Source: Pontiella desulfatans (GTDB lineage Bacteria > Verrucomicrobiota > Kiritimatiellia > Kiritimatiellales > Pontiellaceae). From it: a stretch of DNA of 64,000 nt. Shown here piece after piece: positions 35,692 to 63,880 of this stretch. The stretch covers positions 2,170,001 to 2,234,000 of the forward strand of contig NZ_CAAHFG010000001.1 of the NCBI RefSeq assembly GCF_900890425.1, in the 5' to 3' direction. The position numbers and the translations under genes are program-made. Below the pieces are notes generated by a model that saw only the letters and a list, made by a program, of their open reading frames with translations, ran no database searches and was not told the DNA's origin. Every line of letters starts with the position of its first letter. Positions within the stretch are counted from its first letter, which is position 1.

Positions 35692-36550
35692 GGTAAACAG
35701 AATAGCGGATCCCCCCTGAAAAGAAAAAGAGGAACGCCGGCCGATTGTGCCCCTGAAAGGCCGCGGCGAATCAACGCATGTTCCGGTTCCATAAGATAAC
35801 GGGCACAGCAGATGAACAAAACAAGCGCATCGCCAGCTGGAGTGAATCACCGGTCCAGTGAAGGCCTCGACCTTAACAACTGAATGTAGGCCGGACTGCC
35901 GGCCCTGAGACGTTCAGCAAGGCCGCCCGATAGAAAAACTCCCGCATCCGGGCCGTGAATATAAAAATGGGGAGCCTTCACCCGAAGGCTCCCCGAGGAG
36001 TGGAGTATAAAAAACGGCAGTATCAAACAAACCCAACATTTGAAATCAATAACCTATTTCCCATACTCCTGATGATGAAAATGGTGTGTTGCTTTATATA
36101 TAATACGTCTCTCATGCACATGATCTGACACTTTTTATTAGAAGTGAGTCCCAAAATAACCATATCCCATTACAGCAAAGCAGATTAACACCGTAAAAAA
36201 AAATTCAAAACCCCTCTACCCAGCTCTTTAACCTCGATATTATGAAACTGAACCGCGTGGTTTTCAGCCGCCCCCCGCTTAAGTACATTATATTCAACAT
36301 CATTGCCTCTGCTTTCAATATTCGGCGCCATACTCCCACCCATTTCGGGCAGGAGCGCGGAGCAGCTGATTCAATGATGACTCATTGATCATTCCTTTAA
36401 TACTTTTTTATATACTGACATCCGGATCACAGATACCGGCATGACCCATTTATAAAGTGTTCATTTCATTGATGGACTAGACCAAATGAAGCCCCCTGCG
36501 CATCCCGGCTGCTGGTTCCGATCAGTTGGTCATAACGGTCTATATTCAGG
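35692..36550. other. Long gene-free A/T-rich interval
   Basis: I find no credible gene in these 860 bp. The interval holds the kinase-gene promoter region, a strong minus-strand hairpin terminator at 35961-35994, and at 36460-36490 a short stretch (TTCATTTCATTGATGGACTAGACC) resembling the left end of the IS1595 element in this window. A minus-strand small RNA ending at the terminator is possible. Confidence 0.5.
35961..35994 (-). terminator. Intrinsic terminator about 560 bp beyond the nearest minus-strand gene
   Basis: GGGGAGCCTTC and GAAGGCTCCCC form an 11-bp perfect stem. Read on the minus strand it is followed by ATTTTTAT. It would end transcription from the 36551-47849 cassette or from an unseen short RNA gene. 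Confidence 0.7.
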
Positions 36551-38620
36551 TTAATCAACCGGGATAAATTCAAATCCGGTAATCGTCAGATCCACAGGAG
36601 CAACAACATGGTCATCTCCGTAAACAAGAATCAGTTCCTTGATATTAACCAGCCCCGGCGTACCAGGCATTGGGATTTCAATCGTATTTTCATGCCCAAC
36701 CGCAACATCAAAACGAATATAGATTTCATTTTCGAAGACCATCGGTTTGATTGGAAGCCCCGGCGCACGCTTTAGCGTAATCACACCTTCTATCGGATCC
36801 GCCGCACGGTATTTAATTTCAAGCATACCATTCGAAAGGCTGATTCCCTTTTCCTCGAGTACAACAATAGTAATTCCGCCCGTACGCACTTTTTCACCGC
36901 GCACCTGAAAACGGTCTGTTGTTCGCTGCGGAACCAGTTCATCGCCGGCCGACGTCCATGACAACCATTGAACATCCTCCTTCAACAGATTCATTTCAGC
37001 CCCCGGCTTGTTAAATTCAGCCAGTTTGGTTTCGAGATCATGTGCCGCCAGGTACCGCTGCATATTTTCATGGCCCGACCCGATGCCGCCCAGCACCAGC
37101 GACAACGTATGCGCAGACGTCTGAAATTCAATAACCGCATTGGAGCTCGTGTTATACCCTTCCCACGGACCGTGATCCGTAAAGAGGCCGCTGAAGGTCT
37201 CCCAGTGTTCAGCAAGAAAAGCTTCCATCTTTTCAGGAGCAATCATGTAGGAAACGCCCAGCGTGTAAAGCGATGGTGCATCCGTAATGCGATGATGCGA
37301 TGCCACAGCAATATCAGGAATACCTACATCACCGGTATACTCAACGCCTTTACCACTGTAGGACTCCGTCAGAAAACCGGGATTGCCCAGACGCCGTGCA
37401 AAATCGAGTTCAATATCCACGGTATTTTCAAGGTTCTTCTGCCATCCTGCAAACTGAGACTCCTGCATGAATGAAGTCAGCCCCAGCGACTGGAATGCCG
37501 ATCCATGCCACGTAGCCAGGGTATAGATATCCTTTCCATCCTTCATGCGATACGGCTTAATCTGGAAACCTGAATTTTTCACCGAGTTAACCGGAAAATC
37601 ATACTTCAAAAGACAGAACATAAACGGTGCGCGGAATTCGTTGATAAAATAGTTCTGATGTCCGACAACCCAGCCGCCTTTCCCGTCAGGCCACCCGACA
37701 AACTGATCGGTTGATGCATTCCAGCCGAAAATAAAGGTATCGGTTTCCGGATCAAACAGGTGATTGTATCCCTCTTCCTGCGCCAGGATAAACGCTTCCA
37801 TCTTTTCGCGCAGTTCAACTGCTTTAGGATCCTCTTTCACATTCGGATGCAGTAACGCTCCGATGGTCTTGGCAATCGAAGAGGTCAGGTTTACATTATC
37901 CCCGAAAATAATCTTAACCACACGCTCATCAAGCAGCTCCATAATTTTATATTTTGTCGCATCATCCGCAAAGGGTTCGAGCGCTCCGGTAAAATATTCT
38001 GATCCATATTCACCAACGCGTTTAATCTTTCCTTCAACATCCTCACGCTGCGGAACAATCCACCCGCGTTCCGTCAGAGCCTGCCAGATTTTTTCAGCTT
38101 TCGCGTCGCCGAATGCGTCAACAAAATCGACCTTTTCAACCTCTTCTCCCAGGGGCCCTAAGCGTCGCCCCCCTTCCAGCCCCAGAAAATTACCAAGCAG
38201 CCCTTTGGCACTGACCGTCGGATCCTGCTGATCGGCCACAAGTGAATGTACCGCCTGCTCCAGTTTTACCAATGCGTCATCACGGGTAACATATGGATTG
38301 TCCGCATAGCCGGCCGCAATATTAGCCAATAATTCAACCCATTCGCCAATAGAGGTCAGCTGTGTAAAAGACCGTAAATATAACCCTTTAGACGGATCAT
38401 GATTCCAGCCCTCAACCGGATAACCGGATTGCTCATCAATCAGTCCGTGCGTGGGATTGATGTACCCCATCGAGTTCATCAACAGCTGCTGCATATGCGT
38501 ATGATCCGGTCCTACCATCGGAAAGTGAAAGTCGCCCTTCAACTCCGCTGGATTCCGACTGCTCGATCCAAATGCAAAACCCGCAGCCATCAATACGGTA
38601 GCAAACAGTTTCTTTTTCAT
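36551..38620 (-). CDS. Large exported protein, probable (alpha/alpha)6 glycan-active enzyme, family not identified
   Basis: The ATG at 38620 gives 689 residues with a signal peptide (KKLFATVLMAAGFAFG). Helical, aromatic-rich segments dominate: LYLRSFTQLTSIGEWVELLA near 85, GWVVGHQNYFINEFRAPFMF near 325, YTLATWHGSAFQSLGLTSFM near 375 and LFTDHGPWEGYN near 490. A beta-rich end of about 110 residues follows (PIKPMVFENEIYIRFDV). The pattern of WHGSAFQ, DIELDFARR and GPWEGYN resembles glucoamylase-like toroid enzymes such as GH144, but I cannot assign a family. It is the last gene of a cassette with a GH144-type enzyme and a GH94 fusion, so a role in degrading or trimming the same glucan is a reasonable inference. 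Confidence 0.65.
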   Translation of the reverse strand: MKKKLFATVLMAAGFAFGSSSRNPAELKGDFHFPMVGPDHTHMQQLLMNSMGYINPTHGLIDEQSGYPVEGWNHDPSKGLYLRSFTQLTSIGEWVELLANIAAGYADNPYVTRDDALVKLEQAVHSLVADQQDPTVSAKGLLGNFLGLEGGRRLGPLGEEVEKVDFVDAFGDAKAEKIWQALTERGWIVPQREDVEGKIKRVGEYGSEYFTGALEPFADDATKYKIMELLDERVVKIIFGDNVNLTSSIAKTIGALLHPNVKEDPKAVELREKMEAFILAQEEGYNHLFDPETDTFIFGWNASTDQFVGWPDGKGGWVVGHQNYFINEFRAPFMFCLLKYDFPVNSVKNSGFQIKPYRMKDGKDIYTLATWHGSAFQSLGLTSFMQESQFAGWQKNLENTVDIELDFARRLGNPGFLTESYSGKGVEYTGDVGIPDIAVASHHRITDAPSLYTLGVSYMIAPEKMEAFLAEHWETFSGLFTDHGPWEGYNTSSNAVIEFQTSAHTLSLVLGGIGSGHENMQRYLAAHDLETKLAEFNKPGAEMNLLKEDVQWLSWTSAGDELVPQRTTDRFQVRGEKVRTGGITIVVLEEKGISLSNGMLEIKYRAADPIEGVITLKRAPGLPIKPMVFENEIYIRFDVAVGHENTIEIPMPGTPGLVNIKELILVYGDDHVVAPVDLTITGFEFIPVD

Positions 38621-38822
38621 TGCTCTCTCCTTCACGTTCAAATTCATAATACATATTCCGTCTTAATTCCTCTGATTCTGATCTGCCGACCTATTTTCAC
38701 CGTTACACCATCCCACCCGTGTATGGCGGAGTCCTAAATAAAATACTGTATCTATACCCCGAAAAGTGGGACGATCACCGATCCATCCCGATTTTCAACG
38801 TTTCGGGCACGCCTGTGTCGTC

Positions 38823-41800
38823 CTACAGTTCCAGAGGACTCTTCGTAACATCCCGTTTCAGCTTCTTAAACTTCAGTTCACCTCGTTCAACATCCAGATC
38901 GTTCGGCATAATCACCTCATTATTAATCAATGTCGCACCGATCACCGATTCACAGGCTTGACGGAGCATCCACGCCGCCGCACCGGTATAGCCGTTCCAG
39001 ATCATACGACCCTGGTCATATTTAGTCAGGTAGTCCGCACACTGTTTATTGGGCTGACCGCCATAGATCTCGATCTCTTCTTTCGTTACATGGGAAATAG
39101 CCGAAACCTTGTACCAGATCCGTGCACAGGCATCGCGATAGTGTTGCGCCGTTTCCTGATCGCCCTGCTCCGCAAAGCGCTCCGCCAACAGACGGCAGGC
39201 CCGCGTCAACCACTGCACGCCGTGGGAATACATTCCGTTTTCACGCACTCCTTCCGGATAGCGGCTCGAACGGCCGAGATACGGTTTGGTATCTTCCCGC
39301 AATGGCGGAAAGCCGAGGCTGACCACATTATGGCGTTCGAGCACCTTGATCGCGGTATCGACCGCAATACGGCTTCGCTCCGTATTCACATCGGCATAGA
39401 CTGCCCACGCCGCGCCCAGTGCATCGGTTTCCCAATAGCCTGCGCCTTCAACGCCGATCTCGGTTCCGTCATCATGAATCGCACGCAGGTAGCGGTCACC
39501 ACGCCAAACCTTCTCAATATTTTCTTCAAGTTTCTTCATACGCCCTTCATAGAGCGCCCGGCGCTTGGCCCCGCTGCGCTCTTCAATGATGTGCAGGAAG
39601 TTTTTAAGAATATACGTCAGGAAGAATCCAAGCCATACGGATTCACCGCGACCTTCGGACCCGATTTCATCCAATCCGTCATTCCAGTCCCCCGCTCCGA
39701 TCAGCGGCAGACCATTCGGTCCAAGACGTTTTTCGAATACACAGTCGAATGCTTTCAGCACATGTTCAAAGATCGGATCACCCTTTGGAGACCGCAACGG
39801 ATAGAAGCCCATTCCATGTTTACCTTCCGGCAGCCCCAGCAACGGTGTTTCCGCTTTCAGATAGGTTACCTTTTCATCCAACAGGGTTTGATCACCGGTC
39901 ATACGGGTATATTCAGCAATCCCCCAGCCCAGCCAGAGCAGATTGTCATAGGCATGCGAACGGCAGAGGAAGCCGGAACGCCCGTCCTGTTGACGGAAGA
40001 ACCAGTGCACGACGTCCCCTTCCGAGAACTGCTGTGAAGCATGCAGCTTCAGCTGTGCACGGGCCAGTTTCGGGTCCACCCAGATCATATTGACCGTATC
40101 CTGCAGCTGGTCGCGGAATCCAAAGGCGCCGGACGCCTGATAGAATCCTTTACGGGCCCAGATGCGTTCAGCCAGCGCCTGGTACTTCATCCATTTAACA
40201 TAGGCATCAAATGTTGCATCGGAGGTTTCCAGTTCCAGCGTGGACTGCAGGGCCAGCCACCATTCCTTCGTGGCTTCCAAGGTCTGGACGGCGACTTCCA
40301 ATGATTGGAAGGTTGCAACGACGGCTTCGGCCTGCTTGCGGTTGTCGCCCTGGCCGAGCACGACCGAGATGGTCTGCTCGCCGCCCGCCGGAACCTCGAC
40401 GGTGGTAGTCATGGCAGCCACGGCAAAGTCGTCGGAGGTTCCTGCAACCGGGCTTCCTCCTTCGACCATCGCCGGATGGGCGAAGGTGCGACCCTTGCCA
40501 AAAAACTCTCCGCGCTTGGTGGTGTAGGTTTCCACCGGCGCACTCATCGCCACAAAGCAGACCCCCTCGCGGAAGCTGTTGCGCGGGTTTTCGAAATACA
40601 GCGCACCCGTTGCATCGTCGCGGCTGATTTTGAGTTTACCGGCCATTTCCGGACTGTGCGCCAGCGCAATCTGGAAATACGGCGCCACGCGCAGCTTGCG
40701 CGCCTTGGAACCGTTGTTCTTGATCTTGAGGATATAGACGCCGGTCGGCTCGTCGAGCGGAACGTGTACGCTCAGCTCGGTGGCGAGATTGCCCTTCTCC
40801 ATTTTAAAGGTGGCGGTGCCGTCGAGGCCGAAGAGCACATCCTGCTTGGCTTCGTCATCCTTGAGCGGATCGTAGGTCGGCGCAAACCATTCCTTCGAGG
40901 CTTCGTCGTAAAGGTAGATTGCTTCGGCAGGCATTTGCTGCCCGGTCACGTCCGCCCAGTCGGTGGTCAGGCGGTTTTGCTGCGCATTGCCGTTGGTGGT
41001 GCAATGCAGGCCGCGGTTGGTGACCGAAACCACGTGGCCGAGCGAATTCGACATTTCGTGGTCGAACGGACGCGGCGTGAACGGCGTTTTCACCCGCAGC
41101 GTATTGCCATCGTCGAGATATTCCGTGTATTCATCCGGCGTGCCCGGCAGGATTTCGCCATGACCGATCAGCGGGAAACGCTCCGGCTGCTTGGTATTCG
41201 CCAGACTGGTATCGACCGACGGCTTCAAATGCGTACCGATCCAATCCGCCGCAGTCTGTTTGGTTTCACAGCATCCCACCAGAATCTTCAGCGGTTGGTT
41301 CGCATCGATCAGCATGGCACCGATCGGGTCAAAGGACGGATAGGCATCCATATTGAGCGCGGGTTGGAATTCCAAGGTTTGGAAAACGCGCGGATTCCAG
41401 ACGCTGCCCGCACGACCGATGAAGTCGATACGGCCGGAGAGGATGCCTTCGGGCTTTACGCTCGATGCGAGGATTCCGTGCACCTTTGTATATCGGTGCA
41501 GCGCGAGAATTGCATTCATATCAGTGTGGTACGACATTTCCGGATAGAGGCGGTTATACTGCGAATGGTTGCGGTCGGTGCCCGCATTCTGGATCATCCA
41601 TTCGAGGTAGGGCACAACCTTGAGGTTGCGCTTCTTGCCGGAGAGATCTTCGATATTGATGTCCCAAAGCTCAACCGCATCTTCTTTGTTTGGAAGTGTG
41701 ATCTTAACCGTGGAGCGGACGTCATTTGATTCGTTGACGACGGTGATCACGTCGCCTTCCTGCGTATAGACGGACGGCGTGAATAGCTCTTCCGGGAAGT

Positions 41801-44642
41801 TGCCCAGGATCGGCCAGCCCTGCTTCGCGTCGGCATCGACCACGTAGAGGATGCGCCCGGCGGGTTCGACATTTTCGAAGGCCGGGCGGGTCAGACCGTA
41901 GCCCTTGGTGGTGAGGATCGAGTTGAGTTCGCCGCTCTTCTTGAGTTCAACGCTATAGGTGTTGTTGGAGAGGCGCAGGGTCTTTTCCAGTTGTTCCTCG
42001 CCACGCTTGCGCTTCGAACTGCGGAACACGAAGACGATGGTTGCCCCGATAAAGATAACAAAAATCGAGAGCCAACCAAACGGGAATTGACCGGCAGAAT
42101 CCTGGAGCGCCAATCCGTTTTCAAAAACCTGGTTCCATTCATCGCCCTCGGGCAGGTAGAAGGGAATCAGCAGCGGTGCCCAGGTGGTGAAACGCTTGAC
42201 GCCTTCCGGAATAAAGCGCGCGGTGGCGTCTTTGCCGACAAAGGTGGCGCAGCGTTCGTCGAGCTTGTCCATGCCGAGGAACGACAGGTTGACGAGCGTT
42301 GCGACGCGCAGCCCCATGTGGTCGATCCAGATCAAGACCTGGAACCAGGCAAAACCAATGATCCAGCTGAAGACCGTCAGACTCCATGCGGTAAATCCTT
42401 CCGCATCCATTAGAATACTGTTAACCGATGCAAAAACTGTACGGATCAGTCCGTCCTGATTATACCAGGTGGCTTCCGCCATCGGGCGCAGGAAGGTAAA
42501 GATGATCGGCGCCATCCATAGGCCCCATCGCAGCACGTGTACGGTTCCGTCAACCAGCTCCGCAACACCGTCGCGGGTTGCAATCCGTTTAATGGTTGAT
42601 GCGTCCTTGTTAAGGATCGCGGCCAGGAAGGCTTTATTGATGGCAAACAACGGAGCTGCAATTCCCCAGCCGATTACGCCCATCAGCGCTTCGTTAAACA
42701 AAATTTTAGCCCCGCCTGCTGCAGGAGAAAGACTGATGTGCCCCCAGCGGCTGATCAATGCCGTAAATTCATTCGGTGCGGTTGTACGCAGTTCATGACA
42801 GCGGCGAACAATTTCGCCGGGTTCCATCCCGAAAGAGGTATACAGCTCAAACTTGGTTCCGATGATCGGCAGTTGCGATGCATCAAAATAAAAACCCAGT
42901 CCGGCGCCGATGAAAGCCCCGAGCCCCCCTTCTACCAGATAATAACGTGGCGATTTAAAGCCGTAGACGATATCGCGCGCCAGACTGACTCCGCCAAAGG
43001 CGGCAAATCCAAACAGGGCTCCCAAACCGATCCGTGTTGCGGTCGGGAGTGATGCAAAATCAATCTGTAATCCGACAGCAAAGGCCAGACCAACAACCAC
43101 ACCACGGATATAAAGAACCGGATCCTTATAGGCATTCAATGCACGCCCGAAGAAAGACTGCGATCCGTCAAAGGTTTCAACAATGGTTTTAGCTAAAGGA
43201 AAAATGATGGCACCCACGAGCACAAAACTAATGGAGGTTCCAATAAGGCCCAGGGAGCCGACAAAAGCAATTAACTGCAGCAGGCCCATCAGGACACCAC
43301 TGAAAACAGCTCCTTTAACCACGCCGCTTTTTGCGGTTGGCAAGGCGGATTCAAATGCCGGAGCACCGCCGCGTATCGCATCGAGAATCATACCGGTCAA
43401 TAAAAATACAATCCCCCACAGCGGTGCCTGAGAAAGCATCGTGGCCGCAACCGCGGCAAACGGAGCAACCGCTTCCGGCATCGAAAGCGAACCCAGATCG
43501 GCTACCTTCGGAGCAAGCGTTACCGCCACAGACAAAACCGCCAGCAATCCATGAACCCGGATATCCGACAGCGACTTCTGACGCGTAATCAGCTGCGCGG
43601 CATTTGCAATGAATTCAGCAAAAGCAAATATCAATAACGCCTTCATCCAAATTGAGCCGGCCGTCTGAACAGCCAGCAACAGACCGAATGCAAATGGAGT
43701 GACTGTGATGACACATGCCCCGATCATACCAAGGTGTTTACCGAAGGCCGACAGGCGGTATGCATTGGCGATGAAGTACACCGCCGAAAATAACGCCGCG
43801 CCGAATGCACTAAGCTGGAAAAACGACAACAAAGAGGAAGGCGCCTGCCACACCGATCCGGAGCTGGCCATGGCAGCCAATAGACCGGAGAACAGGGCAT
43901 TCCGAAATGCTTCGCCTTTGGTCAGCGATTTGCCGACCTGGGCGGCTTTAAGCAGTGCGCCAATGGCAACTCCCGCTACGGAGAAGCAGAGGGGAACGCA
44001 AACCTGACGGAAGATGCCAAGGACGACCGCAAAAATGAGCGTGGTTGCCAGACCCAGTGCGACATCGCGCACGAATCCCCGCAACGGTTTAACCGGAATA
44101 AAGGCCACAGCGATGGCGAGCAACGAGACCAGAAGGACGCCCGCCATTTTTCCAAGCAAAGAGGAATTGAGTTTTTCGAAGGACGACATGGTTGTGAAAC
44201 CGATCTCGACATCCAGCGTGCCCAGTGCCGGATCAGCACCGCCGACACGCTGCACCAACAACACAACTTCCGAGAGTTCACCGACCACCGACCAGTCGAT
44301 CTGCACTTTGCTGGTTTCATTCAAAGGAATGTCCAGAGTCTGGATACCGGCGCTCCCTTTCAACTCAATACGAGTTGCTACATTTCCGGATTCGCCGGAA
44401 ATCAAACATTCAATCTGGTCGGCCCCACCGGCAGCCAGCTCCGCCGGATAGTCCTTGGTCCAGATACCGGCCATATCGTTTCCGGCAATGCGGTATTCCA
44501 AAACGGAGCCCTGCGCTTCAACCGAAGCATCGCCCATATTGAACGCACCGCACTCGGCGGCATCATTCCATGTAAACGGCGCCGCCAGCGCCGACCCGGC
44601 CATCATAAAACTCAACAGTACAATCTGTTTAACCCAATTCAT
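38823..44642 (-). CDS. 1939-residue fusion: signal peptide, beta domain, polytopic membrane domain, GH94 phosphorylase-like module
   Basis: Residues 1-20 are a signal peptide and 21-160 a beta-sandwich. From about 165 to 875 there are many hydrophobic segments separated by short loops (MAGVLLVSLLAIAVAFIPV to LSIFVIFIGATIVFVF), then a basic stop (RSSKRKRGEEQ). Residues about 885-1939 look like a GH94 protein: an N-terminal beta-sandwich, GAFGFRDQLQD, HASQQFSEGDVVHWF, GDWNDG at 1651-1656 with the expected catalytic Asp1655, and RENGMYSHGVQWL. GH94 enzymes phosphorolyse beta-glucosidic bonds, and the same module ends cyclic beta-1,2-glucan synthases. No GT84 glycosyltransferase signature is seen in the membrane part, so it is not an ordinary NdvB. 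RBS GGGTGAG precedes the ATG. Confidence 0.82.
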   Translation of the reverse strand: MNWVKQIVLLSFMMAGSALAAPFTWNDAAECGAFNMGDASVEAQGSVLEYRIAGNDMAGIWTKDYPAELAAGGADQIECLISGESGNVATRIELKGSAGIQTLDIPLNETSKVQIDWSVVGELSEVVLLVQRVGGADPALGTLDVEIGFTTMSSFEKLNSSLLGKMAGVLLVSLLAIAVAFIPVKPLRGFVRDVALGLATTLIFAVVLGIFRQVCVPLCFSVAGVAIGALLKAAQVGKSLTKGEAFRNALFSGLLAAMASSGSVWQAPSSLLSFFQLSAFGAALFSAVYFIANAYRLSAFGKHLGMIGACVITVTPFAFGLLLAVQTAGSIWMKALLIFAFAEFIANAAQLITRQKSLSDIRVHGLLAVLSVAVTLAPKVADLGSLSMPEAVAPFAAVAATMLSQAPLWGIVFLLTGMILDAIRGGAPAFESALPTAKSGVVKGAVFSGVLMGLLQLIAFVGSLGLIGTSISFVLVGAIIFPLAKTIVETFDGSQSFFGRALNAYKDPVLYIRGVVVGLAFAVGLQIDFASLPTATRIGLGALFGFAAFGGVSLARDIVYGFKSPRYYLVEGGLGAFIGAGLGFYFDASQLPIIGTKFELYTSFGMEPGEIVRRCHELRTTAPNEFTALISRWGHISLSPAAGGAKILFNEALMGVIGWGIAAPLFAINKAFLAAILNKDASTIKRIATRDGVAELVDGTVHVLRWGLWMAPIIFTFLRPMAEATWYNQDGLIRTVFASVNSILMDAEGFTAWSLTVFSWIIGFAWFQVLIWIDHMGLRVATLVNLSFLGMDKLDERCATFVGKDATARFIPEGVKRFTTWAPLLIPFYLPEGDEWNQVFENGLALQDSAGQFPFGWLSIFVIFIGATIVFVFRSSKRKRGEEQLEKTLRLSNNTYSVELKKSGELNSILTTKGYGLTRPAFENVEPAGRILYVVDADAKQGWPILGNFPEELFTPSVYTQEGDVITVVNESNDVRSTVKITLPNKEDAVELWDINIEDLSGKKRNLKVVPYLEWMIQNAGTDRNHSQYNRLYPEMSYHTDMNAILALHRYTKVHGILASSVKPEGILSGRIDFIGRAGSVWNPRVFQTLEFQPALNMDAYPSFDPIGAMLIDANQPLKILVGCCETKQTAADWIGTHLKPSVDTSLANTKQPERFPLIGHGEILPGTPDEYTEYLDDGNTLRVKTPFTPRPFDHEMSNSLGHVVSVTNRGLHCTTNGNAQQNRLTTDWADVTGQQMPAEAIYLYDEASKEWFAPTYDPLKDDEAKQDVLFGLDGTATFKMEKGNLATELSVHVPLDEPTGVYILKIKNNGSKARKLRVAPYFQIALAHSPEMAGKLKISRDDATGALYFENPRNSFREGVCFVAMSAPVETYTTKRGEFFGKGRTFAHPAMVEGGSPVAGTSDDFAVAAMTTTVEVPAGGEQTISVVLGQGDNRKQAEAVVATFQSLEVAVQTLEATKEWWLALQSTLELETSDATFDAYVKWMKYQALAERIWARKGFYQASGAFGFRDQLQDTVNMIWVDPKLARAQLKLHASQQFSEGDVVHWFFRQQDGRSGFLCRSHAYDNLLWLGWGIAEYTRMTGDQTLLDEKVTYLKAETPLLGLPEGKHGMGFYPLRSPKGDPIFEHVLKAFDCVFEKRLGPNGLPLIGAGDWNDGLDEIGSEGRGESVWLGFFLTYILKNFLHIIEERSGAKRRALYEGRMKKLEENIEKVWRGDRYLRAIHDDGTEIGVEGAGYWETDALGAAWAVYADVNTERSRIAVDTAIKVLERHNVVSLGFPPLREDTKPYLGRSSRYPEGVRENGMYSHGVQWLTRACRLLAERFAEQGDQETAQHYRDACARIWYKVSAISHVTKEEIEIYGGQPNKQCADYLTKYDQGRMIWNGYTGAAAWMLRQACESVIGATLINNEVIMPNDLDVERGELKFKKLKRDVTKSPLEL

Positions 44643-44710: not shown

Positions 44711-46243
44711 TTATTCATCCCGCTCAAACCCGATCGCCTTCAGGGTCGGGACAATTTCAGGATTCTTCATAAAGTTTTTCCAGCACAGACCGGTGCGTGC
44801 ATTTTCAATCATCACAATGATCGGCCCCTGGTCGATGGCGAGGTAACCATCGGCAAACCAGTCGCGATCCGGGTTGAACGAATCGTAGAAGCCGAAAGGC
44901 CCCCACAGTCTGTCCCCCAGCTCGTGGTAGAAATATTTCATGGTCGCCAGTGATTCTTTCGGCGTATAGGGCATCGAGCCCAGGGCCGCGGTCGGCGCAA
45001 TCGTTCCGTTGTCGTGTTTGCCGCCGGGTTCACACGCCCGGTAGCCGTCCGGCGTGTAGCAGGCGGTCAACCCCCAGACCAGTCCGTTATATCCCTTGAA
45101 GTCGCCCGGGTTGTCCTTGCAGTAGGCGCGGTGAATTTTGGTGATGGCCTGCGCATTTTTAAAATAGTTGGTGAACTTGTCGCGGATGCCGCGCGGATCG
45201 AAGCAACAGAAGGAATAGTGCGAGAGGAACAAAGGACCGCCCATGTGGCGTCCGACGTCCAGCGTGATTCCATAGTGCTTTTTCCCGTTCGCATAGTTGG
45301 GCTGTCCGGCCCAGCCTTCGTAGTAGGCCTCGGCCGGGATGGGGTGCGTCGGCGAGGCAATGGCGAGCAGGTAGACGATCATGCATTCGTTGTAGCCGCG
45401 CACTTTCAGGTTTTTCTCAAAACCATAATTAGGCGACCAGTGCCAGACCATGTAGGGCTCTTTATAGAACCAGTCCCACTCGACGGTTTCCCAAAGGCGG
45501 GTGATCGTTTCGCGCAGCTCCTTTTCAACCGGGTTGTCCTGATCGAAATATTGCCGCACGGTCAACAGCCCCTGCATCAGCAACGCGGTTTCGACGATGT
45601 CGGCACCGTCGTCGGTCTTGGAAAAACGGATGGTCTTCCCGGTGGAGCCGTTGATCCAGTGCGCCCATGCACCATGGTAGCGATCGGCCTTTTCCAGAAA
45701 TTTTGCGATGGTCAGCAGGCGTTCGGCGGCTTCAGTACGGGTGACGAATCCGCGCTCGGCTCCAATCATGACAGCCAGAACACCAAAGCCGGTTCCGCCG
45801 GATGCGCAGCCGTCGAAATTGCCGAAATAACGCTCGCGCGTCATGCCGCTTACGGGGTGGGCGTAGTCCCAGAAATATCGGAACGTCGCCTCCTGAATCG
45901 AGGTAACCAGCTCGGCATCCTCCATCTGGCGGGTGCGAGCGGAAACGGGTTTCGGCGCAATGAATCGTTCCTTCCCCTCGCCCACAATTTCCGAAACCTT
46001 GTAATAATAAACGCGCCCGTTTTTTCCGGTAAAGTCGGAATAGACGCCGACCGGATGCGGGTTCTTATTAATCTTCTCAAAAGAGCCGCGCGCTGCGTCG
46101 TTGCGATAGACGTTATACAGCACATCACGCTTCGCTTCCCAGGAGAGGTCAACCCGGCTGTCCGCCCCGGTGGCCGTTAACGCGGAGGCATTGCCGACAA
46201 AAAGCAAAACAAGAAAAGCTGACGCAGACCAATAATTCATCAT
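44711..46243 (-). CDS. Exported glucoamylase-like enzyme, GH144 type (PF10091)
   Basis: The 510-residue protein has a signal peptide (SAFLVLLFVGNASA) and a short fibronectin-like segment (LSWEAKRDVLYNVYRNDAAR). The PF10091 domain then starts near 115: TFRYFWDYAHPVSGMTRERY, GGTGFGVLAVMIGAERGF, VRGYNECMIVYLLAIASPTH, GPLFLSHYSF, GLVWGLTACYTPDGY, DGTIAPTAALGSMPYTP and IDQGPIIVMIENARTG. Characterised relatives in GH144 are endo-beta-1,2-glucanases, so this substrate is plausible. The gene starts 16 bp after a sulfatase and ends 68 bp before the GH94 fusion, forming one transcription unit. The first of two adjacent ATG codons is used; the ribosome-binding site is weak, and coupling to the upstream gene is likely. 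Confidence 0.86.
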   Translation of the reverse strand: MMNYWSASAFLVLLFVGNASALTATGADSRVDLSWEAKRDVLYNVYRNDAARGSFEKINKNPHPVGVYSDFTGKNGRVYYYKVSEIVGEGKERFIAPKPVSARTRQMEDAELVTSIQEATFRYFWDYAHPVSGMTRERYFGNFDGCASGGTGFGVLAVMIGAERGFVTRTEAAERLLTIAKFLEKADRYHGAWAHWINGSTGKTIRFSKTDDGADIVETALLMQGLLTVRQYFDQDNPVEKELRETITRLWETVEWDWFYKEPYMVWHWSPNYGFEKNLKVRGYNECMIVYLLAIASPTHPIPAEAYYEGWAGQPNYANGKKHYGITLDVGRHMGGPLFLSHYSFCCFDPRGIRDKFTNYFKNAQAITKIHRAYCKDNPGDFKGYNGLVWGLTACYTPDGYRACEPGGKHDNGTIAPTAALGSMPYTPKESLATMKYFYHELGDRLWGPFGFYDSFNPDRDWFADGYLAIDQGPIIVMIENARTGLCWKNFMKNPEIVPTLKAIGFERDE

Positions 46244-46259
46244 TCTACATTCTTCATTT

Positions 46260-47849
46260 TCATAAATACGGTGTCTCAAAGGCTTTCTCTGGAACATCGT
46301 AATGCTTGCGCAAACGGTTCAGTTCCTTTTCCAGTTTCATCCGAACCGATTTGTATTCGGGATCATTAATCAAATTCTTCACCTCATTAGGATCTTCCTT
46401 GAGGTCATAGAGTTCAAAGACGTCGTCGGTATAAAAATGCATCAGTTTAAACCGACCCGTGCGCACTCCGTCGTGGCGCGGCACATTGTGCTTTCCGTGA
46501 GCATAGTAGTGATAATAGACCGACTTGCGCCAATCCTTCGGGGTCTTCCCCGCCAACACCGGCAGCAGGGAACGTCCCTGCATTTCGCGCGGAGGAACCA
46601 ATCCGGCTGCTTCAAGGAAGGTCGGAGCATAGTCGATATTCTGGATCATGGCTTCCGGCTGTGAACCCGGTTTGATGACGCCCGGCCAGCGGATGACAAA
46701 CGGCATGCGGAGCCCCTGCTCATACATCCAGCGCTTTTCGGCCATATAGTGCTCGCCCGTAAAATAGTCCTGGTCGGAGCTGTAGACCACGATGGTGTTT
46801 TCGGCCAACCCATTATCGTCGAGCCATTGCAACAGGCGGCCGACGTTGTCGTCGACGCCTTCGACGATGCGGAGATAATCCTTAATGAAGCGCTGGTAGC
46901 GATACTTTTTATCAGCAACCGTTTTCTTGCGGCCGTTTTTCGAAAGCTCGCCCTTCTTGACGCGCTGATAGTAGTCGCGGTTTTCGTCTTCGTAGGCCGC
47001 AAAATAGGCCTCGCTCTCTTCCTTGGTCATGCGCTGGAAATATTTTTTCTGCGCCTTGTTCAGGCTACCCATCGGATCGTCGGGATCGAATATATTCAAT
47101 GCGGAGTCCATGCCACCGACAGGCATCCAATGCTTGGCGAGGTGCGGACGGCCTTCATAATCGTCGAGCAGGGTTTCCGGCTCGGGAAACTCAACATCCT
47201 TGTAGCGGTCAAGGTAGCGGACGTGCGGCATGCGCGGTACGTGCGGCGCCTTGTACTGGCACATCATCAGGAACGGTTTGTTCGGGTCGCGGTCCCTTTC
47301 CATCCATTCAATGGCGCGGTCGGTGATGACATCCGTGGAATAGCCGTCTTTTTCAAACTCACCGTCTTCACCCAGGAAGATCGGTTTGTAGTAACAACCC
47401 TGATGACCAAAACCATCCAGAATTTCCCACGAGTCAAATTCGCCTTTGCTCGGCGCCGGCACCATATGCCATTTACCGCGTAGCGCCGTCTGATACCCGG
47501 CCTTTTTCAATTCACGCGTGAAAACCTTCTGCGTGCCGTCCCAGGCATTGCCGTTATCCATCATCCCGTTCAGGTGACTGTGTTTTCCCGTCAGGATCGC
47601 CGCGCGGCTCGGCTGGCAGATGGAATTGCAGCAGAAGCTGTTTTTAAACACAGCACCCTCTTCTGCAATCCGGTCAATATTCGGGGTGTTGTGCAAACCC
47701 GACCCATAAGCACCGATGGTGCGCTGCGCATGATCATCACTGAAAATAAACAAAATGTTAGGCTTTTTCGCCCGAACCGCATGCGCGCTCAGCCCCGCCA
47801 TTCCGGCGGCCATGGCTCCAATTCGTATAAAACTGCGTCTTTGCATCAT
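46260..47849 (-). CDS. Tat-exported S1 sulfatase heading the glucan cassette
   Basis: The ATG at 47849 follows GGGAGAGAG and gives 529 residues. The N-terminus MMQRRSFIRIGAMAAGMAG is a twin-arginine signal, so the enzyme is exported folded. The domain opens KPNILFIFSDDHAQRTIGAYG, with CQPSR (Cys78), RGKWHMV and YSSDQDYFTGEH. The pattern is that of N-acetylglucosamine-6-sulfatase or mucin-desulfating members, a subgroup guess only. It is the first gene of a unit with GH144 and the GH94 fusion. A LacI-type operator-like palindrome lies at 47902-47917, about 60 bp upstream. Confidence 0.9.
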   Translation of the reverse strand: MMQRRSFIRIGAMAAGMAGLSAHAVRAKKPNILFIFSDDHAQRTIGAYGSGLHNTPNIDRIAEEGAVFKNSFCCNSICQPSRAAILTGKHSHLNGMMDNGNAWDGTQKVFTRELKKAGYQTALRGKWHMVPAPSKGEFDSWEILDGFGHQGCYYKPIFLGEDGEFEKDGYSTDVITDRAIEWMERDRDPNKPFLMMCQYKAPHVPRMPHVRYLDRYKDVEFPEPETLLDDYEGRPHLAKHWMPVGGMDSALNIFDPDDPMGSLNKAQKKYFQRMTKEESEAYFAAYEDENRDYYQRVKKGELSKNGRKKTVADKKYRYQRFIKDYLRIVEGVDDNVGRLLQWLDDNGLAENTIVVYSSDQDYFTGEHYMAEKRWMYEQGLRMPFVIRWPGVIKPGSQPEAMIQNIDYAPTFLEAAGLVPPREMQGRSLLPVLAGKTPKDWRKSVYYHYYAHGKHNVPRHDGVRTGRFKLMHFYTDDVFELYDLKEDPNEVKNLINDPEYKSVRMKLEKELNRLRKHYDVPEKAFETPYL

Positions 47850-47901
47850 CACTCTCTCCCGGCACCAGAACAATCTAGCATGCCTCGATTTCCCAAACTA
47901 T

Positions 47902-47917
47902 ATGTAAGCGCTTTCAT
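47902..47917. promoter_or_regulatory. LacI-type (cre-like) operator
   Basis: ATGTAAGCGCTTTCAT is a near-perfect palindrome with the central GCGC typical of LacI/GalR-family operators. It lies in the 5' region of the sulfatase-GH144-GH94 unit. No LacI-type gene is in the window. Confidence 0.6.
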
Positions 47918-48400
47918 TTGTAAAGATAAAAGAATAGTTTTTTTGTAATCTGCCGAATTTCTCTTACTGGTCGACCCGGTTGGACAGTTATGTTGCGTGG
48001 TTTATTATGTTGCGAAGCATGCGTTTGAATAGCCTTCTGTTGATGTTGGTACGGGAAGTTCGCAACATAATTTCCGATTGAGCGACAGGCTTGTCAGGAA
48101 CTCGAGGATTGGTCATTCCGGAATACCAGAGGCATGAGACCACTGTCCATTTTCTGGATATGGATCTCGCCGTATTCATCATCGGCGTTTCCCGCGAACG
48201 AATTCTCAGAAACTCTCAATTCATCAAAAATGGCTCTGTAAAACTTCGGGGGAAACTTCGGGTTTTGCCCAGCAAAACTCACCGTTTTTCAGATAGTAGC
48301 ACCGCCCATTGACACCCAGACATATTCATGTATCATACTGACTACAAGGTTGATAAAGAAACAATCTGCAACGTGATTCATGGTTTAAATACCGCTTAAA
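47918..48400. other. Gene-poor interval before the IS110/IS1111-like element
   Basis: The interval contains the inverted repeat described at 47988-48071. It also has a minus-strand 62-codon open frame (48094-48282, FYRAIFDELRVSENSFAGNA) that may be a relic of a larger gene, but I could not assign it. An ATG at 48328 opens a 23-codon frame that stops before the transposase frame begins. Confidence 0.4.
47988..48071. repeat. TTATGTTGCG repeats with a 13-bp perfect inverted pair
   Basis: TTATGTTGCG occurs at 47988 and 48005 in direct orientation and inverted at 48061. The last two extend to ATTATGTTGCGAA (48004-48016) and TTCGCAACATAAT (48059-48071), 42 bp apart. This looks like a recombinase binding site or the scar of a lost element. 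Confidence 0.6.
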
Positions 48401-49450
48401 GTGGATGGCAATTCCAACGGCGAGAAGATCCGCAGAAAATCGATAGACGCCCGGGACCGCTCCCGCTTTATGCAGGAGCTCAAGCTGGCGAAGGAAAAGC
48501 TGGGCATGGATCCCGGCGTGCCGGCGCTTTGCTGCTACGAGGCTGGACGCGACGGCTTCTGGATCTGTCGGTGGTTGAAGCAGGTCGGACTCGAATGCCT
48601 GGTGATAGATCCGGCCAGTATCGAGGTCAACCGTCGCAAGCGCCGGGCCAAGACCGACCGGCTGGATGCGGAGGCGATGGTGAGGCTGCTGGGCCGGTAT
48701 GCGGGCGGGGACACGAAAATATGGGCTGTGGTGCGTGTTCCCTCGGAAAAGCAGGAAGATGAGTTGCGCCTTCATCGTGAAATGGAGCGTCTTAAAAAGG
48801 AACGAACGGGACATCTAAACCGGATTAAGGCGCTGTTTATTCTGCATGGAGTGAAACTCTCTGGAACGCTGACGAAGCTGTCGAAAACCTTGGATGGTTT
48901 ACAGTGCTGGAACAAGAAGCCACTTGCGGAAGAATTGAAAGAAGAGGTTCGCCGGGAACTCGAACGGCTGCGCCTGGTTGGCGAGCAGATAAAACTGCTG
49001 GAGAAAAACAAGGCGGAAGCGCTGAAGAACCCACGGACGAACGCGGAGCATCAGGCCCAGGACCTGATGCGCCTGCATGGAGTCGGAGAGGTCAGTGCAT
49101 GGGTGCTGAGCAAAGAGTTTTTTGGCTGGCGGGAATTCAAGAACCGCCGGGAGGTCGCCGCGCTGGCGGGGCTAACGCCGACGCCCTACAACAGCGGCGG
49201 GTCGAGTGTTGAACAAGGCATCAGCAAAGCCGGCAACCGGAGGATCAGGCGGGTTATGATCGAGCTGGCATGGTCATGGCTTCGCTTCCAGCCTGATAGT
49301 GCGCTGACGAACTGGTTTGTTGACCGCTACGCCAAAGGTGGGAAAAGGGCGCGCCGGATCGGAATCGTTGCCGTTGCGAGGAAACTGCTTGTGGCGCTTT
49401 GGAAATATGTCGAGTTCGGGGAAGTGCCCGAAGGAGCCATCGTTAGATAA
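48401..49450 (+). CDS. IS110/IS1111-like transposase, N-terminus possibly missing
   Basis: A GTG start gives 349 residues. Visible parts are YEAGRDGFWICRWLKQVGLE (second acidic residue region), AKTDRLDAEAMVRLL with the Asp pair, a helical linker, GVGEVSAWVLSKEFFGWREF, and the C-terminal YNSGGSSVEQGISKAGNRR with the catalytic-serine region. The expected first Asp motif (GxDxSK type) is absent. An in-frame TAA lies at 48386-48388, and a candidate upstream peptide (DYKVDKETIC, from ATG 48328) is in another frame. The gene is therefore a decayed copy, or a frameshift joins the two parts. Unlike the other IS110 copies, its long noncoding part lies downstream, as in the IS1111 subgroup. Confidence 0.8.
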   Translation: MDGNSNGEKIRRKSIDARDRSRFMQELKLAKEKLGMDPGVPALCCYEAGRDGFWICRWLKQVGLECLVIDPASIEVNRRKRRAKTDRLDAEAMVRLLGRYAGGDTKIWAVVRVPSEKQEDELRLHREMERLKKERTGHLNRIKALFILHGVKLSGTLTKLSKTLDGLQCWNKKPLAEELKEEVRRELERLRLVGEQIKLLEKNKAEALKNPRTNAEHQAQDLMRLHGVGEVSAWVLSKEFFGWREFKNRREVAALAGLTPTPYNSGGSSVEQGISKAGNRRIRRVMIELAWSWLRFQPDSALTNWFVDRYAKGGKRARRIGIVAVARKLLVALWKYVEFGEVPEGAIVR

Positions 49451-50883: not shown

Positions 50884-52293
50884 TTAATAGTGCTTCCATT
50901 CCCTTACACCAGCCGCTTTACGATTGTCCTTGTGACTGCGAAGGGTGTCAACCTCGGCTCCGGGGTCGCCCTGCTCCGCCATCCACGTATCCAGCTGGCC
51001 ACGCAGTCGTTTTTTGATCAAATCATACTCCGGGTTGTCGGCCAGATTGTTCATTTCATACAGATCGTCCATCGTTTTATAGAGTTCTTCTTCCGGGCGC
51101 TTGCGGAAGCGCGTCAGGACTTTAGCAGCCTGAGGGTCGCCAGCGCGTTCGGCTTCTTCCAATGATTGGTACCAGGCCGACGGGAACGTATAGTTGATAT
51201 AGCGCCCCATATACTCGGCTTCGGGAGTCAGATTAAGAACATAGCGATGGGTACCGTCAAATACCGTGCGGATGGGATATGGCTTCCCCTCGGGAATATT
51301 ATTATGCATACCGAAAACAAGCTTGCGGTGCTCCGTAGCCTTGCCATCCAAAACATGGAGAAAACTGCGACCGTCAAAGTGACTGTTGTCCGGTTTTCCC
51401 CCGGCAGCCTCAATCAGCGTCGGGAGCACATCTCAGATCTGCACCATGGCCTTTGTCTCGGTTCCTGGCTCAATTCGCCCCGGCCACCGAGCAATCAAAC
51501 CGGTGTGCAGACTCAGATTCCAGCAGTTCCACTTTCCGCCGGCAAACTGCCAGCCCTGCTCCGAGCTGAACATCACAAGGGTGTTATCAGCCAAGCCATG
51601 GTCTTCAAGTAGTTGGAGCACATCGCCCACCTGCCGATCCAGCTCGGCAACTTCGGCGAGGTAGTGCGTCATTTCCTCGCGGATGACCGGCGTATCAGCC
51701 AGCGCGGGCGGAATCTTCAACTTAGCAGGGTCGAAGCGGGAAGCATCGCCCATCGTCCAGGGTCGGTGCGGATTGGGGGAGTTGATGAACAAGGCAAAGG
51801 GCTCCTTGGAATCGCGTGTTAGAAACGGAACGATCTCCTGCGGTTCATACCGATCCTTCTGCACCACACAGTTCACCTCGAATCCTGAAATAATCTCGAA
51901 TGGAAAATTCTGCTCCGGGAATACATGGCGTTTACCGGTGATACCCACGCGATAGCCGAGTGCGCCCAAATAATGCGGCGTTCCTTTCGTGCCGGGTTTG
52001 CTGGCCGAATGGTTCCAGAGCGCACCGCTACCCATCGGGAAGAGTCCGGTGTGGAGTTCGTGGCGGAACGGCACGCACATTGACGTGCTGGCATAAGCCT
52101 GAGTGAAGCGCAATCCCTCCTGCGCCAGCCGGTCAATGTTCGGGGTTTGCACGTTTGTTCCGCCGTAGCAACCCAACGTGGTGTAGGCGCAGTCATCGGC
52201 TAAGATAAAAACCAGATTGGGACGGGCGGACAGGCAGGAGCAAGCCCCCACCAGCACGACCGCTAACATGGATCGGCTGAAGTTGATATTCAC
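50884..52293 (-). pseudogene. S1 sulfatase interrupted by an in-frame TGA, with altered signature
   Basis: Residues 1-286 (52293-51436) include a signal peptide, RPNLVFILADDCAYTTLGCYG and FSSEQGWQFAGG. The frame then stops at TGA (51433-51435) after TKAMVQI and continues in the same frame as DVLPTLIEAAGGKPD through a complete C-terminal domain to 50884. The motif AMVQISDVLPTL is typical, so one C-to-G change of a serine TCA codon would create the stop. The formylglycine motif is also changed: CVPFR (Cys73) in place of C-x-P-S/T-R. Both changes suggest loss of function. The gene start overlaps the GH43 stop by 4 bp (ATGA). Confidence 0.88.
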
Positions 52294-59845: not shown

Positions 59846-62800
59846 CTATTCGACCCGCTCGATTTCAAGGCGGATAAACTTGGTATTGCTGTCCACGGGG
59901 AACCGGTTGGTTACAAACTCCATCCCCTCGCCCAGATCGGCGGTGCCGGTTTCCACATAGATTCCATTCGTCCATGTACCGTCGACTAAACCCTCCCGCT
60001 GAACCAAACGATATTCAATACCGCTGTCGTCGACCGTTTTACGGGGGTAGAGATATTCCAGCCAGTTACTTCCTCCGCCCGATCCCACAAAAAATCCGGT
60101 CTCGTAGCCGTTCTCCAGCGAATTCGTGGGGTTGCCACCAATCGCATATTCACAGAGGTTGGCCAGCCCGTCGCCATCATCGTCTCCCGCCTCTCCCTGA
60201 ATCAGCAAATGGGATGCCGCCCAGGTATCGTAGGCATGTACCGAAGCCGTACAAACAAGCTCAACCTCAATCGCAGCCAACCGGAATCCGCTGTTCGTTG
60301 GGATTTCGCCGAACATCAGCGTAAAGTCTGCATCGCCCGTTTGGTTAACACCGGCATCGGGAAGCGCCCGACCACCGGGGACTTCAATCCCCAACGAGGA
60401 TACATCCACCGGAATAGTCCCGATATTGTTGGCATCAAACGCAAGATATTCGCCGGTTTTATTATTGAGAATAATGGCCGATTCAACTTCAAAATTAGCG
60501 AGTTCAACCTTGGTGACCTGCAGGACATAATTGGTCAATAATCCGGCATTGGTGGTTCCGATATTGAACGCGACCCCTTCAAACCCGTCATTGGTGGTTC
60601 CACCGATTCCCGCACCGGCCGATCCATAGCGGACTCCCATCCCCTCAGAGGCGGTCGAAGTGGTTTTGTTCAGGGCTCGAACCCCGAACGTTTCCGACGT
60701 CGACACATTGTCAAAAACGCCGGGATCGAACCGAATCTGAAACGCCGCACCATCCAGCGCCGTATCCAGGGCGGCGGTTATGCAGGGATAGTTGGCGTCG
60801 TCCCCCGAATAGTTCGCGCTGGATGCCGCATCGGCCATCCATGTCCCGCCGCCGTTAACCACGCCGGCCACGACATTGTTTTTATCCGTTGCAAGGTTGT
60901 CGCCGCGCAGGCTGATTCTGATGCCGGAGGAAGCCTCGTCCGGGACTTCGCGGTCGACGCCAAAAGAATCGAACAGCACCACATTACTCTCCGACGGATT
61001 GCTGTCGCCTTCGACCCCCGCACCGAGCCCGCACTTCAACACTTTGGTGGCATAAAACTCGTCCGGCACTTCCAGCGGCAGCTGCTCCCATTCACCGCCC
61101 GCCGCTTTTACGCGGAACTGAAAGCGGTCGGTTTCGGTGCGCCGAATAATTTCCAGATGCTCTATACCGGTTGCAAGGGGCTGAACTTCGTACACCTTGA
61201 GCTGGTCATCAACCATCTGCTCAATCTTAACCAGGTCGTCCTCGAACAGCTTCATCTGAATGTAGTTTCTCGGATCCTGCCAGTAGTGGATATAGCCGAA
61301 AATCGGCTTGGCCGCCGTAGGAAGCAGGAGGCGGGTAAAAATGCTATGGCGTTGATATTGCGGCGCATACTGAAGGAAAATATTCTGGGAGGCGTCTTCG
61401 GCACTACCGACGTACAGATCTCCTTTCTTGGGAATGATCTTCAGGAAGCCGCCGAAAAGCCAATATTTGTCGGAATTCACGTTCCAGATATTGATCCAGC
61501 GATCATCAAGCGCCGCAGCGCTGAAATCGTCCTGACCGGTTGCTACCGTTGGAGCCGCAACACCGGAAGGCCATGGCTGGAGATCCAGCGAGGGGCCTGC
61601 CACCACGAGTCGGTCGGGTGCGGCACCGTTGTCCTCATAGGTCACCCGGTCGAGATTCAGCTGGCGCACCCCTTGAGTATCGGTTTTTGAATGGGTAAAA
61701 TAGAGTCCGAAAAGTTCGTTCCCGTCCGGCGACTCCACAAAGGCCATGGCCCCGCTTCCGAGTACTTCGCCTTCCGGAAGGACTGCCCGCGCAAGGATGG
61801 GGTTTTCCGCAGCCTTGGTCCATGGCCCCAGTGGCGACGCGGATGTGGCATAGCCTACCTTGTAATTCGGTCCGCTATATAAATCGGAAGACCAGCTCAT
61901 GTAGTAATAGCCGTTGTGCTGCAGCACGTGAACCGCTTCCTGCCAGCCGTTTTCCCACGCCTGCGAGGGCTGGATGCAAAACGTCGGGCTGCCATCCAGC
62001 TCCTGCATGTTCGGCTTCAGCTTGGAAACATAGACCTTGGCGTTGCCGCCGCTGGCCGGATTGATCTTTTGATATGTGTAGTACATGTAGTATTCGCCGC
62101 CGGCTTCCATGACATAGGGGTCGATATAGCCGTTTCCATTCCACCACATGGGAGCCGCCAGTAGCTCGAAGGTATCCGTGATGTTTGTTGCACTCGCAAC
62201 ACTGATCGTGTGCAAACCACCGCTCGATGCGGTTTCGCTTGAAAAATAGAAATAATAGGTTCCGCCCGCCTTCACCATGTGCGATGCCCACATGCCCGAC
62301 AGCCCCGATCCCGCCAAATCAACCCAGTCCGGCATGGCCTCCCAATGCACCAGATCGGTGGAGCGCTTGCGGTTGTTTCGGTCTAGCAGGTAGTAGGTAT
62401 TGCCCTCTTTGAAGATATTAGGATTTCCGCTGGGGACATCCAGCGGGTTCGCAAATCCATGGATGGTTTCGGCGGGCAGGTTGGTGGCCAAAGCAGACTT
62501 GGCGGCCTGGTAAGCCTGTTCGGCTTCCACATTATTCCATTCGTTGGGGTCTAGATCATGATCGTAGAGTTCTTCCGAGCCATCGGCATATTGGATGTAG
62601 CGGTAGCGGTCGTCCCGCAGCGTGTAGTTCCCCGACTCGTGGCACGACAGCACCGGTACCGAGGATCCGCCGCTTTGCGGATTGGCCAGCAGACCGGAAA
62701 GATCGCGACCGTCAATTTCGTGAACCGGCGGAGTCAGGCCACACAACTCAATCAACGTGGGATATAGATCCTGGAGTGAAACCACTTCCGTGCAGGTGGT

Positions 62801-63856: not shown

Positions 63857-63880
63857 CAAAAATATACTCTTTGAAATATG

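Follow-up and report, generated by a model that had tools for sequence, protein, structure and literature searches.

The window analyzed here, a stretch of 64,000 nucleotides from Pontiella desulfatans (positions 2170001 to 2234000 of contig 1 in a genome of 8.66 Mb in 6 contigs), encodes a 1939-residue protein in which a polytopic membrane domain, here called MEM, is fused to a complete GH94 phosphorylase module. We propose, with moderate confidence, that MEM-GH94 is an inner-membrane machine for the uptake and phosphorolysis of beta-1,2-glucan of the osmoregulated-periplasmic-glucan type. Computed support for this proposal comes from the domain order, the GH94 catalytic motifs, the predicted topology, the gene neighborhood, and co-occurrence with OpgH.

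The gene is an intact frame of 1939 codons at 38823-44642 on the minus strand, with an ATG start and no internal stops. From the N terminus, the protein consists of a signal peptide, a small beta domain, MEM, and a two-supersandwich GH94 module, as follows.

44580-44642, minus strand: signal peptide, residues 1-21 MNWVKQIVLLSFMMAGSALAA, read from the sequence (hydropathy 1.66 over residues 7-25)
44193-44579, minus strand: N-terminal beta domain (NT), residues 22-150
41979-44192, minus strand: polytopic membrane domain MEM, residues 151-888, about 18 helices
43161-43190, minus strand: KTIVETFDGS, conserved cytoplasm-side motif, residues 485-494 (MEM homologue alignment)
42450-42467, minus strand: WYNQDG, conserved periplasm-side motif, residues 726-731 (MEM homologue alignment)
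42279-42323, minus strand: conserved MEM motif DHMGLRVATLVNLSF, residues 774-788 (MEM homologue alignment)
41097-41972, minus strand: first GH94 supersandwich (GP1-like), residues 891-1182 (profile alignment to cyclic-glucan synthase [CGS])
40353-41030, minus strand: second GH94 beta-supersandwich, PF06165, residues 1205-1430 (Pfam)
38937-40259, minus strand: GH94 catalytic (alpha/alpha)6 domain, PF17167, residues 1462-1902 (Pfam and profile alignment)
39678-39692, minus strand: GDWND, residues 1651-1655, with D1655 on the catalytic D2528 of CGS

A preliminary description of this DNA had recognized the fusion, together with a signal peptide, a beta domain, and a series of membrane helices in its N-terminal part. 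The intact frame, hydropathy, and Pfam agree on the former, and sequence and hydropathy on the latter; hydropathy places many membrane segments across about residues 164 to 874 and one marginal segment further toward the C terminus. The GH94 motifs that it reported in the C-terminal part are present, with GDWND at 1651-1655, and belong to something fuller, a complete module of two supersandwiches and a catalytic barrel.

MEM-GH94 is a conserved family found in several phyla. MEM homologues occur in 8 of 97 relatives, the window genome counted, and in nine loci of named genomes (Verrucomicrobia/Kiritimatiellota-type, Omnitrophota, Elusimicrobia, Deltaproteobacteria metagenome-assembled genomes [MAGs], and one labelled Thiotrichales). 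Matches, some of them weak, were also found in 8 of 295, 6 of 297, and 44 of 384 genomes in three phylum samples, and an uncultured Verrucomicrobia MAG shares 74% identity over MEM. Every complete, non-giant member examined has MEM fused to GH94 in unchanged order. The fusion is not a chance event: full-length homologues with the same domain order occur in at least four lineages and MEM retains 55 to 60 invariant columns in an alignment of 34 sequences. Among homologues, 1 to 4 domains related to NT occur in tandem, and in one case the domain has a gene of its own. In Omnitrophota, a neighboring relative scores as CBM11/CIA30/CBM30-like. The preliminary description had regarded many characterized homologues as evidence against its reading; homologues proved to be many, and none characterized was found in the literature searched.

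Several observations bear on how the family is distributed. In the MAG labelled Thiotrichales (L026, JANTGD010000055.1), both MEM-GH94 and the neighboring U698 protein group with Kiritimatiellota-type sequences, and the contig may be misbinned or its gene transferred. The 27 other sampled genomes of the window's genus have no MEM match, and an IS110-type transposase is encoded just upstream of the operon (48401-49450, plus strand); on these two grounds, the window operon may have been acquired. A diverged MEM core (E 8e-9 to 1e-21) was detected in four giant Omnitrophota frames (L096, L097, L100, and L101; G834:C111, G910:C4, G1046:C75, and G852:C41), with GH94 absent from the fetched stretches, which are free of N runs; the G852 contig (45.9 kb) is one open frame throughout. 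The diverged core is a possible lead to a membrane role for these unexplained giant proteins. A 26,995-residue Omnitrophota frame ending in MEM-GH94 (L076, G760:C5:66001-85500) was rejected as an artifact of reading through a long N run.

The GH94 half is recognized by Pfam as GH94_b-supersand (E 1.8e-57, two stretches) and Glyco_hydro_94 (PF17167, E 4.6e-57), both above curated cutoffs, and by profile it matches the supersandwich and (alpha/alpha)6 catalytic domain of GH94 phosphorylases. Among PDB sequences it is closest to CGS (8rf0/8rf9, E 1e-108), and a profile of 25 homologues scored 640 bits against CGS, 254 against cellobiose phosphorylase, and 27 against LpSOGP. The profile matches both GP1 and GP2-3 of CGS, positions 3-294 aligning with CGS 1544-1835, and it is contiguous from 294 to 295 where CGS jumps from 1835 to 2031, the Rossmann-like insertion of the CGS domain map (1847-2012; PMC10901819) being absent. 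The GDWND, RDQLQD, H, and TG motifs are invariant across the 25 homologues. RDQ, H, and TG are the phosphate-site motifs of GH94. The second Asp of GDWND (D1655) aligns with D2528, the catalytic residue of CGS (PMC11842490). Given this alignment and the invariance of GDWND, the sequence predicts that the GH94 half should be an active phosphorylase. In a quick-search tree, the 25 MEM-GH94 modules stand apart from CGS and other GH94 proteins with support of 100; because SOGP is represented there by a long-branched fragment, the tree does not fix the root.

The preliminary description had left the side of the membrane on which GH94 lies to topology prediction, which places the module in the cytoplasm (positive-inside in 34 of 34 homologues). 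Lys and Arg account for 19.6% of residues in predicted inner loops versus 6.3% in outer loops, with inner exceeding outer in all 34, and the sequence RSSKRKRGEE follows the last MEM helix. Members from Deltaproteobacteria are missing both NT and the first transmembrane helix (TM1) and start on the cytoplasmic side, while in the Omnitrophota locus L078, NT and TM1 form a separate gene (L078:9578-10318) 14 bases upstream of the remainder. The charge bias, the joint loss, and the split gene together predict a periplasmic beta domain and a cytoplasmic GH94 module. The separate L078 protein is possibly lipid anchored (ISGC motif).

In the window, MEM-GH94 is the third of four genes on one strand, separated by gaps of -38, 68, and 175 bases.

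46260-47873, minus strand: sulfatase (PF00884 and SGSH_C), at the start of the apparent operon
44711-46297, minus strand: GH144 (PF10091), secreted, endo-beta-1,2-glucanase type, upstream gene
36551-38647, minus strand: U698, secreted, distant relative of clan GH-S, downstream gene
47897-47924, minus strand: promoter-like TTTACA-16-TATAGT before the sulfatase gene, weak
35969-35994, minus strand: terminator-like hairpin of 11 pairs with a T tail, after U698

The promoter-like and terminator-like sites are weak evidence, because both kinds occur near the chance rate. The three acidic residues D139, E142, and E211 of CpSGL are all conserved in the window GH144 (as D233, E236, and E304); CGS has Ser at the position of the first of these, an Asp in CpSGL (PMC10901819), so the window protein is hydrolase-like. 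U698 matches no named Pfam family; it is a remote relative of 8xuj (E 1.2e-6), from the beta-1,2-glucanase clan GH-S (PMC12102758), and adjoins MEM-GH94 in four relatives. The window operon itself encodes no transporter. Elsewhere in the genome lies a second, conventional beta-1,2-glucan locus (L107-L108, G000:C1:1520000-1548000) where a PF10091 protein and a sulfatase are encoded together with an MFS sugar carrier and a true SOGP. Two further sulfatase features were seen in the window: adjacent PF00884 and SGSH_C-like frames at 50884-52293 (minus strand), which may stem from a gene that is broken or from an error in the sequence, and a 1337-residue protein at 59846-63859 (minus strand) that joins a sulfatase to a GH43 domain.

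Among homologues, the recurring neighbors are GH144, the GH-S-like U698, or OpgG (GH186), which represent three beta-1,2-glucanase families; OpgG/OpgD proteins are beta-1,2-glucanases (PMC10514313). OpgG adjoins MEM-GH94 in three of four deltaproteobacterial neighborhoods (L031, L082, and L084; MdoG/OpgG E 1e-183 to 1e-193), and in L084 OpgH adjoins it as well. Five Omnitrophota loci share the order GH144, TPR protein, MEM-GH94, second PF10091 protein, and two ABC permeases, followed in four of the five by an unknown gene and a ROK protein; in L078 a beta-domain gene is inserted in this order. GH3 is encoded downstream of MEM-GH94 in L018, and an MFS sugar transporter and a PfkB kinase upstream of it in L025. 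Long PF10091 proteins (L018:14993-18034, L104, and L106) with Ig, FG-GAP, malectin, or F5/8C domains are possibly surface beta-1,2-glucanases. The idea that the long proteins of Omnitrophota and Elusimicrobia are hidden synthases was rejected, as the three checked are multidomain, secreted, and hydrolase-like, with surface-type modules and no glycosyltransferase.

Among deltaproteobacterial genomes, OpgH, counted as present above the curated cutoff, was found in 6 of 6 with MEM versus 10 of 291 without it (Fisher P = 9e-9); within the window's order, it was found in 6 of 7 genomes with MEM versus 2 of 36 without it (P = 3e-5). Both P values are per genome and ignore shared ancestry. The window genome, with no detectable OpgH, is the sole exception among the seven. 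OpgH was over the cutoff in none of 20 Omnitrophota and Elusimicrobia MEM members checked, all 20 of which have PF10091 genes. MEM-GH94 thus tracks a partner that makes glucan or one that cuts it, and the co-occurrence implies that it is not needed as a glucan synthase where OpgH exists.

We postulate the following route. The periplasmic beta domain and the secreted endo-glucanases (GH144 and U698; OpgG in Deltaproteobacteria) would bind and shorten the glucan, MEM would provide the path for the chain across the membrane, and cytoplasmic GH94 would use phosphate to release glucose units from the non-reducing end as glucose-1-phosphate. In genomes with OpgH, the periplasmic glucan recycled by MEM-GH94 would be the cell's own product; in the window genome, where OpgH was not detected, MEM-GH94 would scavenge glucan of foreign origin. 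The substrate (likely beta-1,2-glucan, as the neighbors suggest), the direction of flow, and the role of MEM as a conduit are what we infer. In favor of uptake we also count the GH3, MFS and PfkB, and ABC permease and ROK neighbors and a GH94 module nearer to CGS than to cellobiose phosphorylase. Against it, the OpgH link was counted genome by genome with no phylogenetic correction, and the Omnitrophota and Elusimicrobia members show no OpgH above the cutoff. Its main weakness is twofold: another importer is present in some loci (ABC permeases in the Omnitrophota operons, MFS in L025), and MEM has no known transporter among its detectable relatives.

Some of the same evidence could be read in the opposite direction, with GH94 setting the length of beta-1,2-glucan by trimming the nascent chain in the cytoplasm, MEM exporting it, and OpgG or GH144 processing it in the periplasm. 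The GH94 part of CGS controls length (PMC10901819), and CGS is the nearest relative of the module; OpgH co-occurrence, OpgG adjacency, and the adjacency of OpgH in L084 would fit as well. However, OpgH is undetectable in the window genome and below the cutoff in the Omnitrophota and Elusimicrobia members, whose long PF10091 proteins, where checked, are secreted and hydrolase-like and not synthases, and the GH3, PfkB, MFS, and ABC permease neighbors look catabolic. We regard biosynthesis and export as unlikely.

What MEM itself does is the second point at issue. The preliminary description had separated the protein from CGS, seeing neither GT84 nor a cyclization domain, and Pfam, PDB profile, and fold searches of MEM bear this out. 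Pfam found nothing above threshold in residues 150-888, NCBIfam likewise gave no match, and the MEM profile had no match in PDB, although CGS chains were in the library. The assignment of MEM to GT84 or CGS was rejected on sequence grounds; positive controls for GT84 detection were the solved CGS structures and a true CGS of a relative (L105), which shows its GT2 domain. Pfam searches of MEM members gave no match at a meaningful E value to MFS, ABC permease, or other transporter families, and hhalign of sub-alignments detected no internal repeats; both results count against uptake. An AlphaFold model built with 34 homologues is all-helical and fair (pLDDT 83.8, pTM 0.81); an earlier model (pLDDT 75.9) had a best structural match of Z 6.2 that was judged spurious, and Foldseek of the whole-domain models returned nothing at E <= 0.001. 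With no family match, no convincing fold relative, and no repeats, MEM is an unclassified membrane domain, but the missing fold match does not prove its fold to be new.

The alignment of MEM shows clusters of invariant charged and aromatic residues on both faces. Their density would suit an enzyme too, which counts against uptake and in favor of MEM being a membrane enzyme in its own right, fused to an independent phosphorylase; a transferase, GT-C-like or other, that modifies glucan on the periplasmic side would be one example. The top VIA row for the pLDDT 83.8 model is AftA, a GT-C arabinosyltransferase (Z 5.6, rmsd 6.7, 226 aligned), a score within the noise range of the tool, and Foldseek adds nothing at its threshold. 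In GT-C enzymes the first loop holds the catalytic residue, whereas the first periplasmic loops of MEM are very short. An enzymatic MEM seems improbable to us, and like biosynthesis it has a lower probability than uptake. It would be just as surprising if MEM were a mere anchor or scaffold for the phosphorylase, with neighboring carriers doing the uptake: ABC permeases in five Omnitrophota operons, MFS in L025, and the MFS carrier in the separate SOGP locus of the window genome would allow it, but about 18 helices with 55 to 60 invariant columns across diverse sequences exceed what an anchor needs, and the window operon supplies no such carrier.

If uptake with phosphorolysis is correct, we tentatively suggest that MEM represents a new family of polysaccharide conduits. 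The glucan would be imported non-reducing end first, each glucose-1-phosphate released by GH94 ratcheting the chain further inward, and the protein would supply the recycling arm so far missing from periplasmic-glucan metabolism. A synthase in which polymerization is coupled to export would work the opposite way. The phosphorylase kind is already known, as is GH94 fused to membrane glycosyltransferases in CGS. In the literature searched (subscription journals and preprints lay outside it), MEM is an undescribed membrane domain, the fusion of GH94 to a non-GT84 domain of about 18 helices and a periplasmic domain is likewise undescribed, and no phosphorylase or recycling step for periplasmic beta-1,2-glucans has been described. 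A conserved family that unites a periplasmic domain, an undescribed MEM, and a cytoplasmic phosphorylase, and that occurs beside beta-1,2-glucanases from unrelated families and together with OpgH, makes glucan recycling or scavenging directly testable. Because of GH94, these proteins are likely to be annotated as cyclic-glucan synthases, although the synthase domain is absent.

Among known systems, CGS is likewise a membrane protein with a C-terminal two-supersandwich GH94 module that keeps the catalytic Asp; the predicted cytoplasmic GH94 of MEM-GH94 and the GH144-type (cyclase-fold) protein encoded next door add to the likeness. Unlike CGS, MEM-GH94 has no GT84, no cyclization domain, and no Rossmann-like insertion, and it has about 18 helices versus 6 and a periplasmic N-terminal domain; by Pfam, the cyclization-type domain PF10091 is absent from its chain and present in the adjacent gene. 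The GH94 SOGPs (Lin1839/LpSOGP), for which the same reaction class is expected, share complete GP1-GP3 without the CGS insertion and a gene neighborhood with beta-1,2-glucanases and GH3. They differ in having no membrane domain and in sequence (27 bits for LpSOGP), and the SOGP_2nd and SOGP_4th domains that Pfam detects in L108 of the same genome are absent from MEM-GH94. The OpgGH pathway (OpgH, GT2; OpgG, GH186) co-occurs with MEM-GH94, with an OpgG paralogue directly adjacent in Deltaproteobacteria; in contrast to it, MEM-GH94 has no GT2 and mostly lies at a locus apart from opgGH, and the known pathway has no phosphorylase. Finally, the beta-1,2-glucanases of GH144, GH162, and GH192-194 in clan GH-S, to which both secreted flanking genes are related, are partners of MEM-GH94 and distinct from it.
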